Part shown: piece by piece, positions 45,578 through 53,448 of the stretch
Layout of the letters: the number at the start of each line of letters is the position of its first letter
How positions within the stretch are numbered: position 1 is the first letter of the stretch
Source: Hyalangium gracile
GTDB taxonomy: Bacteria > Myxococcota > Myxococcia > Myxococcales > Myxococcaceae
Direction of reading: 5' to 3'
Length of the DNA: 64,000 nucleotides
Assembly (NCBI RefSeq): GCF_020103725.1
Contig: NZ_JAHXBG010000017.1
Location: 62,001 to 126,000 of the forward strand
Notes under the pieces: model-generated
Told to the model about the DNA's origin: nothing
What the model saw: the letters and a program-made list of their open reading frames with translations, nothing else
Database searches by the model: none
Program-made: the position numbers and the translations under genes

Positions 45578-47296
45578 ATGACCCTTGCCGTCGCTCCCAC
45601 GTCCACGCCCATCTCGTCGATGGACTCGCTGGTGCGCCGCCTCAAGGAGGGCGCCCACTCCTGGGTGAAGGTGACGCTCGGCGAGCGCATCGCGTTGCTG
45701 GAGGAGCTGCGACGCGGCTACCACGCCATCGCCGCGCCCAGCGTCCAGGCCGCCTGTGAGGCCAAGGGCATCCCGCCCGGCAGCCCCATCGCCGGCGAGG
45801 AGTGGCTGGCCGGGCCGCTCGTCGTGCTGCGCAACCTGCGCCTCCTCGTCGAGTCCCTGAAGGACATCCAGCGCCACGGCGCGCCGCGCATCCCCTCCTC
45901 GGCGCTGCGCACGCTCGAGGACGGGCGGCTGAGCGCGCGCCTGTACCCGGCCGACCTGCTGGACTCGATGCTGCTCATGGGCCACGTGGGCGAGGTGTAC
46001 TTCCAGCCCGGGGTGACGGCCGAAAACCTCCGCGAGCACCAGGCCTCCTTCTACCGCCGCCCCCACGAGGGCCGCCTGTGCGCCGTGCTGGGCGCGGGCA
46101 ACGTCAACTCCATTCCTCCCGCGGACTGCCTCTACAAGCTCTTCGTCGAGGGCACGGCGTGCGTGCTCAAGATGAACCCGGTGAACGCCTACCTGGGGCC
46201 CTTCCTGGAGCAGGCCTTCGCGCCGCTGGCCCGCCGCAACGTGTTCGCCGTCGTCTACGGCGGCGCGGAGGAGGGCTCGGCGCTCGTCAACCACCCGGAC
46301 GTGGACGAGGTGCACATCACCGGCAGCGACAAGACGCACGACATGCTGATGTGGGGGCCGCCCGGCCCCGAGTCCGACGCCCGCCGCGCGCGCAACGAGC
46401 CGCTGCTCAGGAAGCTCATCACGAGCGAGCTGGGCAACATCTCCCCCGTCGTCGTGGTGCCGGGGCCCTACAGCGACGGCGAGGTGCGCTTCCAGGGCGG
46501 CAACATCGCCGGCATGGTGGCCAACAACGCCTCCTTCAACTGCAACTCCGCCAAGCTGCTGGTGCAGCCGCGCGACTGGGGGCGCCGTGGGCAGGTGGTG
46601 GACGCGGTGCAGACGGCGCTGGGCCGCACCAGCGTGCGCCGCGCCTGGTACCCGGGGGCCGAGCAGCGCTGGAAGCAGTTCACCGAGGGCCGCAAGGGCC
46701 TGCGCCTGGTGGGGACGCCGGGGCAGGGGGAGCTGGCCTTCGCCCTGGTGCCGGACGTGGATCCGTTCCAGGCGGAGGACCGCGTCTTCACCCAGGAGCC
46801 CTGGTGCACCGTGCTCTCCGAGACGGGCCTGCCGGGCGCCGATGATCCGGTGGCCTTCCTGGAGCAGGTGGTGCCGTTCCTCAACGACAAGGTGTGGGGC
46901 ACCCTGTGCGCCACGCTCGTGGTGCACCCGAAGTCGCTGAAGGATCCGGCGGTGAGCGCGGCGGTGGAGAAGGCCATCCGCGAGCTGCGCTACGGCGCGG
47001 TGGCCGTGAACACCTGGCCCGCCGCCGTCTTCGCCCTGGGCGTCCTGCCGTGGGGCGGCCACCCGTCCTCCACGCCCCAGGACATCCAGAGCGGCCTGGG
47101 CTGGGTGCACAACACCAAGATGCTGGAGAGCATCGAGAAGGCCGTGCTCCGGGCGCCGCTGACCAGCTTCCCGCCCTCTCCGTGGATGCCCGGCCACCGG
47201 GGCGTGGCCACGCTGGGGCGCAGGCTCGCGGACTTCGAGATGGCCCCCTCCTGGCTCAGGATTCCGGCCATCGCCGCTGCCGCCATGCGCGCCTGA
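45578..47296 (+). CDS. Aldehyde dehydrogenase family protein, divergent active-site loop
   Basis: 572 aa, longer than the usual 480-500. The family core is visible: VLGAGNVNSIPPADCLYKLF for cofactor binding, HITGSDKTHD, SELGNISPVVV with the general-base Glu, then a catalytic-Cys loop reading NNASFNCNSAK, where typical enzymes have GQxC. Cys is retained but its surroundings differ, so specificity cannot be assigned. The N-terminal 110 residues form a helical extension. A GGGAGG site precedes the ATG; longer in-frame starts are low-complexity. Confidence 0.88.
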   Translation: MTLAVAPTSTPISSMDSLVRRLKEGAHSWVKVTLGERIALLEELRRGYHAIAAPSVQAACEAKGIPPGSPIAGEEWLAGPLVVLRNLRLLVESLKDIQRHGAPRIPSSALRTLEDGRLSARLYPADLLDSMLLMGHVGEVYFQPGVTAENLREHQASFYRRPHEGRLCAVLGAGNVNSIPPADCLYKLFVEGTACVLKMNPVNAYLGPFLEQAFAPLARRNVFAVVYGGAEEGSALVNHPDVDEVHITGSDKTHDMLMWGPPGPESDARRARNEPLLRKLITSELGNISPVVVVPGPYSDGEVRFQGGNIAGMVANNASFNCNSAKLLVQPRDWGRRGQVVDAVQTALGRTSVRRAWYPGAEQRWKQFTEGRKGLRLVGTPGQGELAFALVPDVDPFQAEDRVFTQEPWCTVLSETGLPGADDPVAFLEQVVPFLNDKVWGTLCATLVVHPKSLKDPAVSAAVEKAIRELRYGAVAVNTWPAAVFALGVLPWGGHPSSTPQDIQSGLGWVHNTKMLESIEKAVLRAPLTSFPPSPWMPGHRGVATLGRRLADFEMAPSWLRIPAIAAAAMRA

Positions 47297-47401: not shown

Positions 47402-50266
47402 ATGGGGATGAGGAAGCCTGCCGTTCGTGGCCAGAAAGCTCGGGCTCGGCCGAGACGGCCCTCCTCTTCCTTTTCCTCCAATCGACAGGAGCTGCTCGAG
47501 CTGCTGCTGCACGACGGCATCCTCCGGGAGTCCACGGCGCCGCACGGCTCCGACGGCCCCGAGCCCGAGAACCCCTGGCGGCTCGACTCACTCGGGGTGA
47601 CGCTCTCCTCGCGCGGGGCGGAGCTGGCGGGACGGTGCCTGCTCCAGCTGCTCGAGAAGTTCGAGGGGAAGCAGCTCGCGACCTTTGGGACGACGGGCGT
47701 TCCCCTGCTCCAGTCCTGCGTCCTGCTGTCGAAGGGCCGGTACCACGGGCTGCTCGTACGCAAGGAGCGAGAGGGCAGCGGCTCGCCCAAGCTCATCGAG
47801 GGGCGCATCGAGCCCTCCGAGCCGGTGATCATCATCAACGACTCCATCGGGCTGGAGACCTCGATGGAGGAGGCCACGGCCCGGCTTGAGGAGGCCGGCC
47901 TGCGCGTCGAGGGCGGAGTATGCCTGGTGCGCTTCGGCTACGAGGGCGGCTTCTCCCGGATGCGCGAGCGCGGCTACCAGATGCTGTCGCTCTTCGACAT
48001 CTGGAACGACGTCATCTCCCACATGCCGGGGGAGGATGCGCTGGCGCCGAACCCGACCCGGGTCTTCCCTCCGCACGAGCCGTCCTCCGAGGCGGCGCCC
48101 GAGGGCCTGCATCCAGCGGAGCTCGCGCGTCGGGTCATCGAGGAGGCGCTGAGGACGGGGAAGCTGCTGCGTCCGCCCAGGCGCATCCAGGGGCGCTACT
48201 CGGGGGCGGGCGGCGTGTGGATCAGCGTGCGGCCCAGGGACGACGTTCGCCAGCGCCACGCGCGCGCCGGCTTCTGGAACTTCCCCGGGGAGAAGGCGCC
48301 CTCGCTGCCCGTGGCGATTGGCGAGGCCGCGTTCCTGGCCGCGCAGACGCTCCTTCAGGAGACGACGGAGCCGCTCGCCGTCCTGGAGCGGAGCGCCATC
48401 GCGGTGACGTTCTGCTCGGAGCTCGAGGAGTGCGAGGTCGGCCAGCTCGACAATGATCGGTACGGGCTCGTGGTGCGCAGCCGCGAGCGGCCCTTCCTCA
48501 TCGGAGGGGCCATGCCGCGGATGCCGAGCATCGAGAACGAGTGGGAGCAGCTCGAGAGCGCGCGCGTCCGGAAGGCACGGCTGCTGCCGTGGGAGCCCTT
48601 CGTCCTCTATCGCTACGAGATCCAGAAGGCCGTCGAGCCCGGCATCGCCTGGCAGCCGAGCGGCGTCCCCACGGAGGCGCCTCCGCGCTGGGTGGCCGCC
48701 AGCGCCTCGCTCGCGGAGCGTGCGCTCGAGGTGGTGCGGGCGCTCTCCGAGGGACGAGAGCCCGCGCCGGCTCGCGGGGATGTCCAGCTCGACAGCACGG
48801 TCGAGTCGCTCCAGCTGAGCGTCTATCGCCAGGGCCGCCTGGTGGGCGCGGCGGTGGCGCGTGTCACGCGTCCCGAGGAGGACCTGGCGACGCTGGCCCG
48901 GAACATCCTCTCGGCGCAGGGCTCCGAGCCTCGCGGGGCGGACGGGCCGCTCGCGGTGATGGTCTCGCTGCTCCACGACGCCGCCGAGCTGGGCGAGCTG
49001 AAGCCCGACCAGGTCGCCGAGCACACGCGCCCCTCGGATCAGGCGCTCATGGCCTATCGCGGGGAGCAGGCCGGGCTGGTGCTGCCGTCCGCCGTCATCG
49101 CTGGCAACCTCTCGGCGTTCGCCTACGCGAGCGCGGCCCTGAAAGAGGCGGGGTTGCCGGAGGGGCCGGCGCACTGGCGCCGCTTCGACTGCACCACGTG
49201 GTTCGCCGACGCCAACGGGGTCCGCCGCGTCATGTACGGCCTGCCCGTCGGTGAGGCGCCCAAGTCCTTCGAGCAGCGCGTCACCCGGCTCACCCAGGCG
49301 CTCTGCAAGTTCCTCCTGCGCCACCTGGGCGAGACGTCCCGCTACGAGCCGTTCGCCGACAAGATCCGCAAGGGGCTGCCCACCGAGTGGCTCGCGCACC
49401 AGGCGTGGACGCTGGCGCGCGCTCACCGGAAGCTGGGGCCCGCGCCGCTGGGGGAGGGCGCTCGGACGCTGCTCACCGCGCTCACCTCGGACCTGGTGTT
49501 CGACGAGGCCGAGCGCGTGTGGATCCGCTCGGAGGGCGAGCCCTCCATCTCCGAGGTGGCGCTCGTGCTGCTCGCGCTGCTGGAGACGGGGGACGACAAC
49601 ACCACCGCCGCGACGCTCGCCGCGACCATCTGGTCGAACATCGGCCCCACGGGCCGGGTCATCTGCCAGATGGATCCGGCGGACGACGACGACATGTTCC
49701 AGGACTCCATCCCGGGCATGGCGCTGCTGGCGCTGGCCCGGGCCGCGGAGCTGAAGGTGTGCGAGCCCGACCGGGAGAAGCTCGAGCAGGCGCGGCGCCG
49801 CTACCGTCACCGCTTCCTTTATAAGCGCCACTGGAGCCAGGTCTCCTGGATGACGCAGGCGGTGGTGGCCTGGTGGCGCGTGGACAAGAATGCCGAGGAG
49901 GCCCGGTTCGCCTTCGAGATCTGCGACTGGGCGCTGACGCACCAGTCCGAGAAGACCGGCGCCTTCCTCAACAACCACCAGCCCGATACGCCCGGGGACA
50001 CCACCGCCCTCTACCTGGAGGCGCTCGCCGCTGGAGTGGAGCTCGCCAAGGGCCTGAAGGACCGGACCCGTCTGCGGCGCTACCTCGATGCGTATGCGCG
50101 TGGGGTGGGCTTCCTCGACTCGCTCGTGTTCCAGGAGCGGGACGTGGCGCTCCTGCCGAACCCGCGCTTCGCCATCGGCGGAGTGCGCAAGAGCCTCGTG
50201 CAGAGCGAGGTCTGGGTGCCCTCCGTGCAGCACGCGCTGGCGGCGCTCCTCGGCCTGGAGCGCTGA
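47402..50266 (+). CDS. Multidomain fusion: PRTase, two AMMECR1-like domains, alpha/alpha-toroid
   Basis: 954 aa. Residues about 28-225 resemble orotate-type phosphoribosyltransferases: GLLVRKERE, KLIEGRIEPSEPVIIINDS as the PRPP-binding loop (one usual acidic residue is replaced), and VCLVRFGYEGGFSRMRERGY. Residues about 236-420 and 428-605 each show the AMMECR1 order: a GVWISV strand in the first copy, and a GLVLPSAVIAG strand plus KEAGLPEGPAHW in the second. About 625-954 is helical with PTEWLAHQAW, GRVICQMDPADDDDMFQDS and FLNNHQPDTPGDTT, like six-hairpin glycosidase toroids. It has no signal or membrane segment. It may be a nucleotide- or sugar-modifying enzyme, with unknown substrate. Domain boundaries are estimates. 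Confidence 0.85.
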   Translation: MGMRKPAVRGQKARARPRRPSSSFSSNRQELLELLLHDGILRESTAPHGSDGPEPENPWRLDSLGVTLSSRGAELAGRCLLQLLEKFEGKQLATFGTTGVPLLQSCVLLSKGRYHGLLVRKEREGSGSPKLIEGRIEPSEPVIIINDSIGLETSMEEATARLEEAGLRVEGGVCLVRFGYEGGFSRMRERGYQMLSLFDIWNDVISHMPGEDALAPNPTRVFPPHEPSSEAAPEGLHPAELARRVIEEALRTGKLLRPPRRIQGRYSGAGGVWISVRPRDDVRQRHARAGFWNFPGEKAPSLPVAIGEAAFLAAQTLLQETTEPLAVLERSAIAVTFCSELEECEVGQLDNDRYGLVVRSRERPFLIGGAMPRMPSIENEWEQLESARVRKARLLPWEPFVLYRYEIQKAVEPGIAWQPSGVPTEAPPRWVAASASLAERALEVVRALSEGREPAPARGDVQLDSTVESLQLSVYRQGRLVGAAVARVTRPEEDLATLARNILSAQGSEPRGADGPLAVMVSLLHDAAELGELKPDQVAEHTRPSDQALMAYRGEQAGLVLPSAVIAGNLSAFAYASAALKEAGLPEGPAHWRRFDCTTWFADANGVRRVMYGLPVGEAPKSFEQRVTRLTQALCKFLLRHLGETSRYEPFADKIRKGLPTEWLAHQAWTLARAHRKLGPAPLGEGARTLLTALTSDLVFDEAERVWIRSEGEPSISEVALVLLALLETGDDNTTAATLAATIWSNIGPTGRVICQMDPADDDDMFQDSIPGMALLALARAAELKVCEPDREKLEQARRRYRHRFLYKRHWSQVSWMTQAVVAWWRVDKNAEEARFAFEICDWALTHQSEKTGAFLNNHQPDTPGDTTALYLEALAAGVELAKGLKDRTRLRRYLDAYARGVGFLDSLVFQERDVALLPNPRFAIGGVRKSLVQSEVWVPSVQHALAALLGLER

Positions 50267-50300: not shown

Positions 50301-50905
50301 GCCATGTCGGTGATGCGGATGTGCTTCGGCTGGGACTGGACGCGCTCGAACCAGGCGCGGATGGCGGAGTAGCGGCTCAGGTCGAACCGGCCCTCCTCGG
50401 CCACGTGGGTGTACGCGTACAGGGCGATGTCCGCGAGGCTGTACTGGTTGCCCGCGAAGTACGGGCGCTTCTGGAGCTCGCCCTCCATGACGTCCAGGGC
50501 GGCATAGCCCTTCTGGATGCGCTCCTCGAGCTCGCGCTCCTTGCCGGGAGGAATGCCGAAGAAGGAGAGCCACGCGCGCGCCACCGCGACGTACGGCTCG
50601 TGGCTGTACTGCTCGAAGAACATCCACTGGAGCATCCGCGCCCGCTCCAGCTTGTCCGAGGGGATGAACGGCGTGCCCTCGGCGAAGTACCAGAGGATGG
50701 CGTTGGACTCGGCGAGGAAGACGCCCGGCTCCAGCTCCAGGGCGGGGACACGGGCGATGGGGTTCTTCGCCTTGAACTCCGGCGTCCGGGTGGCGCCGAC
50801 CATGAGGTCCGTCTCGACGGTCTCGAACGGGATGCCGAGCTGGTGCAGCAGCAGGCGGACCTTGTAACAGTTACCCGACGGGTGGAACTGGTAGAGCTTG
50901 AGCAT
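50282..50905 (-). CDS. Glutathione S-transferase family protein
   Basis: 207 aa. An N-terminal thioredoxin fold (LYQFHPSGNCYKVRLLLHQL, then the cis-Pro region RVPALELEPG and ESNAIL) is followed by the all-helical C-terminal domain with SLADIALYAYTHV. It should conjugate or reduce electrophilic substrates in the cytosol. It is close in length and order to bacterial GSTs of the Ure2p/beta-like groups. No pathway neighbour indicates a substrate. Confidence 0.93.
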   Translation of the reverse strand: MLKLYQFHPSGNCYKVRLLLHQLGIPFETVETDLMVGATRTPEFKAKNPIARVPALELEPGVFLAESNAILWYFAEGTPFIPSDKLERARMLQWMFFEQYSHEPYVAVARAWLSFFGIPPGKERELEERIQKGYAALDVMEGELQKRPYFAGNQYSLADIALYAYTHVAEEGRFDLSRYSAIRAWFERVQSQPKHIRITDMAPAAAR

Positions 50906-50978
50906 GGCGACGGGGAGTGTGCCCCAGCCCGCGCCGGATTACCGCCCAAAGGCAGCGTTCACCTGTAGGAGACTCGTG

Positions 50979-52661
50979 ATGCCGCGTGACAGGAGAAGGA
51001 GGGCTCTCGCGAGGTGGGGGGTATGGGCGGTGCTGCTCGGGCTCTGTGCGTGTGTCGGTGCTTCGCAGCCTGTGGCTGGCTGGAGCAGCAAGGGGAGCGG
51101 AGGTGGACTCGTTCTCGGGTCGAGCGCTTCGAGGAGAGAGCCGGAGAAGGAATACTGGGATTTCATCCTGCGCAAAGAGCAGGTCCTGCGGCAGTCAGGT
51201 GCATCGGAGGAGGACTGGCGGCGGGAGCAGCTGGTGCTCGCGGAGATGACCGTGTGGATGCATGCTCAGGATGCTGTATCACTGGCGCGTACTTCACCGG
51301 AGGAACTGTACCTGCGGTTGAAGGCGGCCCGGCGGCAGTTGGAACGCGAGGAGCAGGAGCGTGCCGAGGCCGTGGAAGTGAAGCTGGAAGAGTTCTTCAC
51401 GTGGGCCATGCGTCGCTGGGCTCAGAGCGCCGTGCGGTTTCGTACCGTGGGGCGTGAGTACCTGCTCACCGAGCATCCTCTGCGCGAGCAGACGCAGAAT
51501 GCGCTGACGGCTGCCGTACTGGATTGGGCCTTCACGCACACACGGGATCCGGACTTCCTGAGCAAGAGCCCCAGCGAGGTGGCCGTATATCTGCTGGCCC
51601 GGAACAGCGTGTTGTTGACCGCTATCGAGCTGGGGCAACAGGCCCCACCCCAGCTGGACTACATACCGCTGCCGGATGAGACGGCTGCCACACCGGAGGA
51701 ACTGGCCATCGAGCTCTTGGTGGGCTTCGTACCGCTGGCGGGAGAAGCGGCCGACTTCCATGCGTTGCTGACGGGACAGAGCATCACGGGTCGCAAGCTG
51801 ACCCGAGAGGAAGAGGCACTGTGCGCAGTGGGGGTGCTGCTGCCGTTCGTGTCCGGCCGGGCCCTGGCGGGCGTGGAGATGGCGGAGCGAGCGGCGTTGC
51901 TGACCGGGAGGGGCCTGGAGGAGGTGCGGGTGCTGCAACGGGTGGCCTCCCACCTGAGCCCCGAGGACGCTGGAGAGATCGATCGGATGCTGCGTGCGGC
52001 GGCGAAGGGCGAACGCCTGGGGACGGGTGACGTGGAGCTGATCCGGGGCGTCGCCCGGAAGCTGGAGCGACCGCTGAGCGAGGCAGCCGATACCTTGCGC
52101 AAGGGCGGCAAGGTGCCCTTTCTGGGAGTGCGCAAGGGAGTGGAGGGAATGAGGGTGATGCCCGGAGAGCCCGCGCATATGGCGCAGTGCTGGGTGGACT
52201 ACCAGTTCCGCCACCCAGGCAGGTACCCGCGCTTCACCTACGCGCCAGATGAGGCCTGGAAGCGGCTCTACGAGTCCATCCTGCGCAACAAGGAAGCAGG
52301 AACAGCCTTCGAAAGGCCCGTGCTGAAGGCGGGCGGTTACGAGAAGAACGTGGCGATGATGATGTCGCCGCCCGGAAGCAGGCTCCAAGGCTTCATTCCG
52401 GACGCGGTGCCCGGCAACCCGGGAGAGCTGGTCTGGGGGCGGGCCTATCGGTTCGTCGAAGTGAAAGCGCGCGCGAAGCTGGACCTGGGCGGCAACCTCA
52501 AGGCCATGCTCGAATATGTGAATGCACACGGAGGCGCCATCGAGCTCTGGGTGCGCTCCGCCAGGCATCCAGAGGGTCCAACCCAGCTTTCAAAGCCCCT
52601 GCGCGATCGCTTGAATGGCCTGGAGGCCCAGGGCAAAGCAACCATCAGGTCCTATCCGTGA
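50979..52661 (+). CDS. SitA-like lipoprotein toxin with pre-toxin domain and nuclease tip
   Basis: 560 aa. An Arg-rich type II signal peptide has a lipobox LCAC (Cys25). The middle is helical, with a pre-toxin TG-type segment (about 240-300: VGFVPLAGEAADFHALLTGQ and a second hydrophobic run) known from polymorphic toxins. The C-terminus has a PD-(D/E)XK nuclease pattern: D475 in FIPDAVPG and E494-x-K496 in FVEVKA. This architecture matches SitA toxins exchanged between myxobacterial cells by outer-membrane exchange, as established in M. xanthus. An immunity gene follows after 13 bp. An AGGAG site precedes the ATG. Confidence 0.85.
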   Translation: MPRDRRRRALARWGVWAVLLGLCACVGASQPVAGWSSKGSGGGLVLGSSASRREPEKEYWDFILRKEQVLRQSGASEEDWRREQLVLAEMTVWMHAQDAVSLARTSPEELYLRLKAARRQLEREEQERAEAVEVKLEEFFTWAMRRWAQSAVRFRTVGREYLLTEHPLREQTQNALTAAVLDWAFTHTRDPDFLSKSPSEVAVYLLARNSVLLTAIELGQQAPPQLDYIPLPDETAATPEELAIELLVGFVPLAGEAADFHALLTGQSITGRKLTREEEALCAVGVLLPFVSGRALAGVEMAERAALLTGRGLEEVRVLQRVASHLSPEDAGEIDRMLRAAAKGERLGTGDVELIRGVARKLERPLSEAADTLRKGGKVPFLGVRKGVEGMRVMPGEPAHMAQCWVDYQFRHPGRYPRFTYAPDEAWKRLYESILRNKEAGTAFERPVLKAGGYEKNVAMMMSPPGSRLQGFIPDAVPGNPGELVWGRAYRFVEVKARAKLDLGGNLKAMLEYVNAHGGAIELWVRSARHPEGPTQLSKPLRDRLNGLEAQGKATIRSYP

Positions 52662-52674
52662 GGAGGTCTCCGTC

Positions 52675-53448
52675 TTGGCAAAGCCTCTCGACACGAAGTT
52701 CAGCCTCTTGCCCGGCGCTCTCTCGCTCTCCGTCGTGAGGGAGTTGTTCCGGCTCGTGTTCGAGAAATACAGGTGGTTTAGCCCCGTGAGGTATGGGGAG
52801 GCATTCCTGGATGGGAGGCTCGATCCGAACCGGGCAGACCTGGATGAACTCCTCGCCTTCTATGAGGAGCGACAGACCATCACGGTGGCGGCCCGCACGG
52901 ACCGGGACTTCGTCATGGTGTACCCCTCGAAGCCGGGTTCAGCGCACCCCTATGCGGGAACCCTCTCCTGGACTACGTCCACCCGCGAGGCAGACAAGAC
53001 CAACTGGCGCGCGGCGCATGCGCGGCAGGTCCAGGAAATCATGTCGCTCCTGGGCTCGCCGTTGGCGCAGGCGGGGCTGGATGAGGACTTCGCCCGTAAG
53101 ACGCGGCGCTGGGTTTCAGCCGGCGATGGACAGGGACAGGAACAGGCCATCACCGTGCGTGATTCGAGCGAGGGACTCGCGGGCATCTACTGGCGCAACT
53201 TCTTCGGGGCGCCTTTCCTTCAGCTCCTGGGTGATCGGCTGGAGGCGCTGCCCGCCGAATGTCGGCAGGAACTCAGCGATGAGCTCGTCCTCGTCCAGCC
53301 TTACGAGCTCCCCGCGCAGGCCGGCACTCCCGAGGGGGATGCGCGTGAGCGTCAGCTCATTTCCCTGCTGGGACCCGAGTGCTTCTACGACCACGAACGA
53401 CATGTGAAGCCCCTGAAGAGGCCTGGCTTCGGTTCTCCCGTGCATTGA
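52675..53448 (+). CDS. Immunity protein, Imm52-like
   Basis: 257 aa from TTG, with GAGGAGG 8 nt upstream. The pattern GIYWRNFFGAPFLQLLG and LSWTTSTRE fit the Imm52 family of immunity proteins in polymorphic toxin systems. There is no signal peptide, so it acts in the cytosol, where the nuclease toxin would act. Placement 13 bp after the toxin gene and in the same direction is typical of toxin-immunity pairs. It should bind and block the nuclease domain. Confidence 0.86.
   Translation: MAKPLDTKFSLLPGALSLSVVRELFRLVFEKYRWFSPVRYGEAFLDGRLDPNRADLDELLAFYEERQTITVAARTDRDFVMVYPSKPGSAHPYAGTLSWTTSTREADKTNWRAAHARQVQEIMSLLGSPLAQAGLDEDFARKTRRWVSAGDGQGQEQAITVRDSSEGLAGIYWRNFFGAPFLQLLGDRLEALPAECRQELSDELVLVQPYELPAQAGTPEGDARERQLISLLGPECFYDHERHVKPLKRPGFGSPVH

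Follow-up and report, generated by a model that had tools for sequence, protein, structure and literature searches.

A PRTase–AMMECR1–toroid fusion gene in Hyalangium gracile, probably an orphan of a RiPP-like repeat-peptide cassette of the Myxococcota

The window analyzed here, a stretch of 64,000 nucleotides from Hyalangium gracile (contig NZ_JAHXBG010000017.1, positions 62,001 to 126,000 of the forward strand), carries a gene for a single polypeptide of 954 residues that joins an orotate-phosphoribosyltransferase-like (PRTase-like) domain, two AMMECR1-like domains, and an α/α toroid (Table 1). Position 47408 is an equally likely start, as the closest relative begins at residue 3, and would give a product of 952 residues. 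Our analysis confirmed that this frame is a real gene with a four-domain architecture, as a reading of the DNA letters alone (the sequence-only reading) had proposed.

Table 1. Features of the fusion gene in the window, with positions counted from the first letter of the window.
Feature	Position	Strand	Basis or remarks
Fusion gene, PRTase-like + 2 AMMECR1-like + α/α toroid	47402..50266	+	ORF and translation
Orotate-PRTase-like domain	47465..48043	+	NCBIfam pyrE, 5e-10; PDB OPRTs via family profile
Decayed OPRT catalytic loop, RKEREGSG (relatives RKExKxHG)	47759..47782	+	K103→E, H105→S
Decayed PRPP motif, VIIINDSIGLETS (relatives VVLVDDTLATGES)	47825..47863	+	D124→N, T128→G, G130→E
AMMECR1-like domain 1 (divergent)	48080..48682	+	Pfam PF01871; 1vaj via domain profile
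AMMECR1-like domain 2	48683..49213	+	1zq7/1vaj/1wsc via domain profile; missing in G083 relative
Decayed AMMECR1 motif, LVGAAV (relatives LxGCxG)	48839..48856	+	Within domain 2
α/α toroid	49199..50263	+	AlphaFold model and PDB matches; helices from ~residue 620

The N-terminal domain matched the NCBIfam pyrE model over residues 69–200 (E = 5e-10) with a score of 39.4 bits, below the curated cut-off of 106.8, and a profile of nine family members matched solved orotate PRTases (OPRTs) at E = 9e-16. Pfam PF01871 aligned over almost the whole model with residues 240–409 of the window protein (E = 0.001), where the score for this protein alone was 19.1 against a curated cut-off of 25; the same model matched 9/9 family members, with a best E value of 2.4e-13 that is possibly owed to domain 2. 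A profile of domain 1 only matched the AMMECR1 structure 1vaj at 2.7e-5 across the first 76 columns, a profile of domain 2 matched 1zq7 (1.7e-16), 1vaj, and 1wsc, and a profile–profile comparison of domain 1 with domain 2 returned a probability of 2.4%. The AlphaFold model of the AMMECR1 pair, for which two sequences served as input, was too poor to use, with a pLDDT of 40, and both AMMECR1 assignments therefore rest on sequence. A Pfam AMMECR1 search of the window's own genome (G000) found only a stand-alone AMMECR1 elsewhere in that genome.

An AlphaFold model of the C-terminal region from a two-sequence alignment (pTM 0.76, pLDDT 68.5) matched the α6/α6 toroids of squalene-hopene cyclase, cellobiose 2-epimerase, and GH76 with Z scores of 21–24 over ~260–300 residues, which is far above chance and predicts an α/α toroid fold; the region matched no family model, and its profile matched no PDB sequence. 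Although the predicted fold is like that of GH76, AGE epimerases, and squalene-hopene cyclase, the fusion toroid is only ~6–17% identical to these proteins. These matches bear out the N-terminal PRTase, the two AMMECR1-like middle domains, and the six-hairpin toroid of the sequence-only reading. Its suggestion that the combination might be new also held, as we found no description of a PRTase, AMMECR1, and toroid combination in the open-licence papers searched; the combination thus appears undescribed. Two proteins of another genome, G182 (L061 9252–11171 and L062 7304–9163), have an apparent N-terminal membrane segment and a toroid related to that of the fusion family; their N-terminal region is maybe AMMECR1-like by eye and has no Pfam match.

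We sought relatives in 195 Myxococcota genomes, in which genes at the neighbourhoods were called with a simple script that gives approximate starts. Full-length or near-full-length relatives were present in 10 of the 195, including G000, members of other genera, and G183, which belongs to another class. An eleventh genome, G088, shows only the last ~20 fusion codons at a contig edge, overlapping the start of a radical SAM gene. The G081 relative (L002) is 70% identical to the window protein. AMMECR1 domain 2 is cleanly absent from the G083 relative (residues 428–613), indicating that this domain is a module. Separate PyrE-like genes occur in most fusion-carrying genomes, G000 included, and a plasmid tblastn search returned PyrE/UMP-synthase-type matches only.

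The sequence-only reading had pointed to homologues and their gene neighbours as a check, and these proved informative: the fusion gene lies in a cassette in eight genomes (G084, G088, G089, G090, G132, G133, G136, and G183) and never stands alone outside the clade of the window copy. Six of them (G084, G089, G090, G133, G136, and G088) have a gene of ~610 codons for a B12-binding radical SAM enzyme 3′ of the fusion, which it overlaps or follows within a few bases; the corresponding gene adjoins the fusion in G183 but is divergently transcribed, and G132 carries it on the fusion contig but not adjacent, at a distance of ~21 kb. The partners from G084, G089, and G090 scored 523–539 bits against TIGR03975 (cut-off 282), a model whose name, 'RiPP maturation radical SAM C-methyltransferase' (rSAM_ocin_1), is an annotation, and the remaining partners likewise scored above the cut-off. 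All partners fall in one clade with SH-aLRT support of 100 and a long stem, independently of two tree rows that were read in the wrong frame (L068 and L069), and the Cx7CxxC motif is invariant among them. At E ≤ 1e-180, a profile of this clade hit exactly 8 of the 195 genomes, the same eight that carry the linked fusion. The fusion is nearby in seven of these eight, and the eighth, G088, has the fusion end at a contig edge; under an assumption of independent genomes, which does not hold, the overlap of the seven would arise by chance with a probability of 4e-12.

At the seven linked loci where repeat frames could be read, a tandem proline-rich repeat frame was always present. In six genomes it immediately precedes the fusion, at a spacing of −8 to 18 nt, and in G089 it starts the same gene run. 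Repeat sequences in these upstream frames include RPEVIREIGPRPPKP, RPEIIREIAPHPPP, PPVVMEVGPVRPGKP, PEIRPLPEIRPI, RPEMRPEMRPPTSI, and RPPRPVIEIAPE, and an E[IVM][AGR]P tetrapeptide core occurs 6–30 times per frame, compared to means of 0.1–0.5 in shuffled sequences. A DNA pattern of two tandem cores matched 4 of the 195 genomes, in all four at the fusion locus, with one extra match at the end of another G133 contig; a reversed control gave zero matches. The putative precursors are long and rich in Pro, Arg, and Lys, their core lacks Cys and aromatic residues, and no Cys occurs in any of them. The frame of G183, which belongs to a different class, has the same repeat motif behind a helical-looking N-terminal region; in this precursor (L060 7992–8825) the long N-terminus holds two similar segments, and leaders are short and basic elsewhere.

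The G089 precursor is the only one rich in Ser/Thr (11 residues), and G089 is also the only locus with genes for an LxmK-like kinase (match 2.5e-24, below cut-off) and a HopA1 protein (5e-31) between precursor and fusion. Such pairs have been proposed to carry out dehydration and cyclisation in class V lanthipeptides (PMC7794033). In this single case, then, the substrate and the enzymes of the locus vary together. The likeness to class V lanthipeptide/thioamitide dehydratase pairs ends with these genes, however, as the pair occurs at 1/8 loci and precursors without Cys would form no thioether rings; for the same reason, we consider the toroid unlikely to be a LanC-type cyclase. The G089 kinase and HopA1 genes span L028 550–3257, and the C-terminal half of the HopA1 protein is aldo/keto-reductase-like by eye.

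In the linked relatives, then, a RiPP-maturation enzyme stands beside a candidate precursor gene, an arrangement that the window locus lacks. As in known TIGR03975 RiPP systems, the partner (~240 bits above the curated cut-off) has an adjoining candidate peptide gene; unlike in them, it forms its own clade, the precursor is a long Pro-rich repeat, and the second enzyme is a PRTase–AMMECR1–AMMECR1–toroid fusion. The pairing of an AMMECR1 domain with a radical SAM enzyme is also found in AmmeMemoRadiSam (AMMECR1–Memo–radical SAM), but the cassette enzyme belongs to the different, B12-binding TIGR03975 family, and the scanned partners (G084, G089, and G090) matched no AmmeMemoRadiSam radical SAM model at E ≤ 0.1. 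No Memo gene was apparent from the gene calls beside the partner. The guess of the sequence-only reading that the substrate is ribosylated or glycosylated came from the domains, and the gene context suggests instead a polypeptide of proline-rich repeats, with a radical SAM enzyme of the RiPP type as partner.

We compared active-site signatures using E. coli PyrE numbering and the roles that we take R99, K100, K103, H105, D124, D125, and R156 to have in that enzyme. The linked copies keep R99, K100, D124, D125, and G130, and six of the seven also have K103, which is R in G183. H105 is present in five, G090 having R and G183 Y in its place. The PRPP loop of the linked copies reads VDDTLATGES or a close variant. 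By contrast, the orotate-contacting Arg156 of true PyrEs is F, Y, L, or S in 10/10 aligned members. Thus, the family resembles PyrE in a fold-level sequence match and, in the linked copies, in the PRPP motif and catalytic loop, but differs from it at Arg156 throughout and, in the window copy, also in the loss of PRPP and catalytic residues. Because the PRPP and catalytic residues are mostly kept and Arg156 is lost, PRPP binding seems within reach of the linked copies, and perhaps also transfer chemistry, though not on orotate. The AMMECR1 Gly-Cys motif, canonically LRGCIG (PMC5502304), is present as LxGCxG or VRGCSG in 7/7 readable linked copies.

These signatures are broken in the window copy and its nearest relations. 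G000, G081, and G083 group together in a single clade with 100/100 support that is nested among the linked copies when the tree is rooted on G183, and catalytic residues were lost differently in each: the window copy has K103E, H105S, D124N, T128G, and G130E, the G081 copy has R99P, K100E, K103E, and H105D, and the G083 copy has a deleted catalytic loop and D124H. The AMMECR1 motif reads FVGLAG in G081 and is gone with domain 2 in G083. The clade profile found no partner radical SAM subfamily member in these three genomes, no cassette genes were found in their gene-called neighbourhoods, and no repeats were found upstream of the window fusion. As the three orphans are a single clade, partner loss and motif decay count as one correlated event. 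The sequence-only reading was correct that the PRPP loop is altered in the window (IINDS), but the decay is confined to the window clade, so this is no family trait; judged from the alignments, it is a lineage-specific decay that accompanied partner loss. The window copy probably has no PRTase activity.

For the window and G081 fusions, dN/dS was ~0.41 overall and 0.69 in domain 2, compared to 0.29–0.34 for two neighbouring genes and ~0.31 for a linked fusion pair. In a search of five sister genomes from the same genus, no fusion turned up. Three of these (G082, G077, and G079) were inspected at the locus, and their site is empty, with a cupin gene abutting a GST gene; the locus is otherwise syntenic. 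The empty sites and dN/dS values indicate that the window gene is dispensable and under relaxed constraint, which is nonetheless present, and that it is no plain pseudogene.

We consider it fairly probable that the window gene goes back to a tailoring enzyme of several domains from a RiPP-like cassette, consisting of a proline-rich repeat precursor, the PRTase–AMMECR1–AMMECR1–toroid fusion, and a dedicated B12 radical SAM C-methyltransferase, and is now a decaying or re-purposed orphan. The domain content, the cassette, its conservation over two Myxococcota classes, the co-occurrence, and the retention or loss of signatures were all read from the DNA. In the mechanism that we propose, the repeat precursor would be translated and bound, the radical SAM enzyme would C-methylate its Val/Ile/Glu/Pro-rich cores, and the fusion would add or process a second modification, most likely via a PRPP-binding PRTase site that does not recognise orotate, with the AMMECR1 pair and the toroid as further catalytic or substrate-holding modules. 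The window lineage would have lost the precursor and the radical SAM partner while its fusion persisted. Phosphoribosyl transfer to the repeat peptide is possible, and the window copy is unlikely to perform such a step. The fuller version, in which a polypeptide of proline-rich repeats would be C-methylated by the B12 radical SAM enzyme and would also receive a phosphoribosyl-derived group from a PRPP-dependent fusion, we put forward only tentatively.

Other explanations fit parts of this evidence. We identified no peptidase, transporter, or recognition domain, which leaves a mature secreted RiPP hypothetical; the repeat product could be a structural protein, in which case the fusion and the radical SAM enzyme would decorate a surface or structural proline-rich protein for mechanical or adhesive purposes and yield no small-molecule RiPP. 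The long Pro/Arg/Lys-rich repeats, their core free of Cys and aromatic residues, and the want of a recognised excised core, peptidase, or exporter suit such a protein, but membership of the partner in a RiPP-maturation radical SAM family and the class V lanthipeptide-type dehydratase pair in G089 argue against it, and we regard it as unlikely. It is also conceivable, though doubtful, that the PRTase and AMMECR1 domains have no catalytic role and serve for binding, as a PRPP or peptide sensor that regulates or scaffolds the radical SAM enzyme. Family-wide loss of the base-recognition Arg is consistent with that role, as is AMMECR1 itself, for which no catalysis has to our knowledge been demonstrated; most linked copies, however, keep the catalytic-loop Lys and His, which is beyond the need of binding.

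Retention of most OPRT PRPP-site and catalytic-loop residues in the linked copies, together with a toroid that resembles sugar-processing folds, could also belong to a PRPP-dependent nucleobase or cofactor enzyme whose repeat-gene neighbourhood is incidental. What makes this very improbable is that, in two classes, the fusion strictly co-occurs with and adjoins a single radical SAM subfamily and a repeat gene, and that every member has lost the orotate-contact Arg156. We thus favor descent of the window gene from a tailoring enzyme of a RiPP-like cassette.

The cassette points to an undescribed, RiPP-like system for peptide modification that is built around AMMECR1 and has a new tailoring enzyme of several domains. 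Conservation of AMMECR1 extends from archaea to humans, and we know of no chemistry ever assigned to this protein. In the cassette, AMMECR1 domains are linked to a candidate substrate peptide, to a site of the PRPP type, and to a radical SAM methylase of a known class. A point mutation in the LRGCIG motif of AMMECR1 leads to human disease (PMC5502304). If PRPP-dependent peptide modification were true, it would be a new class of ribosomal peptide modification and give AMMECR1 its first testable substrate. The cassette would add a tailoring-enzyme architecture to RiPP biology, with a type of repeat precursor that short-ORF miners may miss, and its few genes are open to co-expression with a mass spectrometry readout.

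Other genes near the window fusion and elsewhere in G000 deserve mention. Just upstream, at 45578–47296, is an aldehyde-dehydrogenase-family gene (PF00171); nothing at the syntenic loci in G081, G082, G083, G077, and G079 corresponds to it. A secreted-looking protein encoded at 50898–53448 weakly matches the pre-toxin TG family (PF14449, 6.6e-4, below cut-off) and is followed by a 277-residue protein without a family; the two look like a polymorphic toxin/immunity pair. The only TIGR03975 enzyme of G000 (C22, L074 1757–11710) belongs to a different subfamily from the cassette partners, and near it, by eye, are a short peptide gene, a peptidase-type ABC transporter, and a lanthipeptide-dehydratase-sized protein; this region is probably a separate RiPP cluster.
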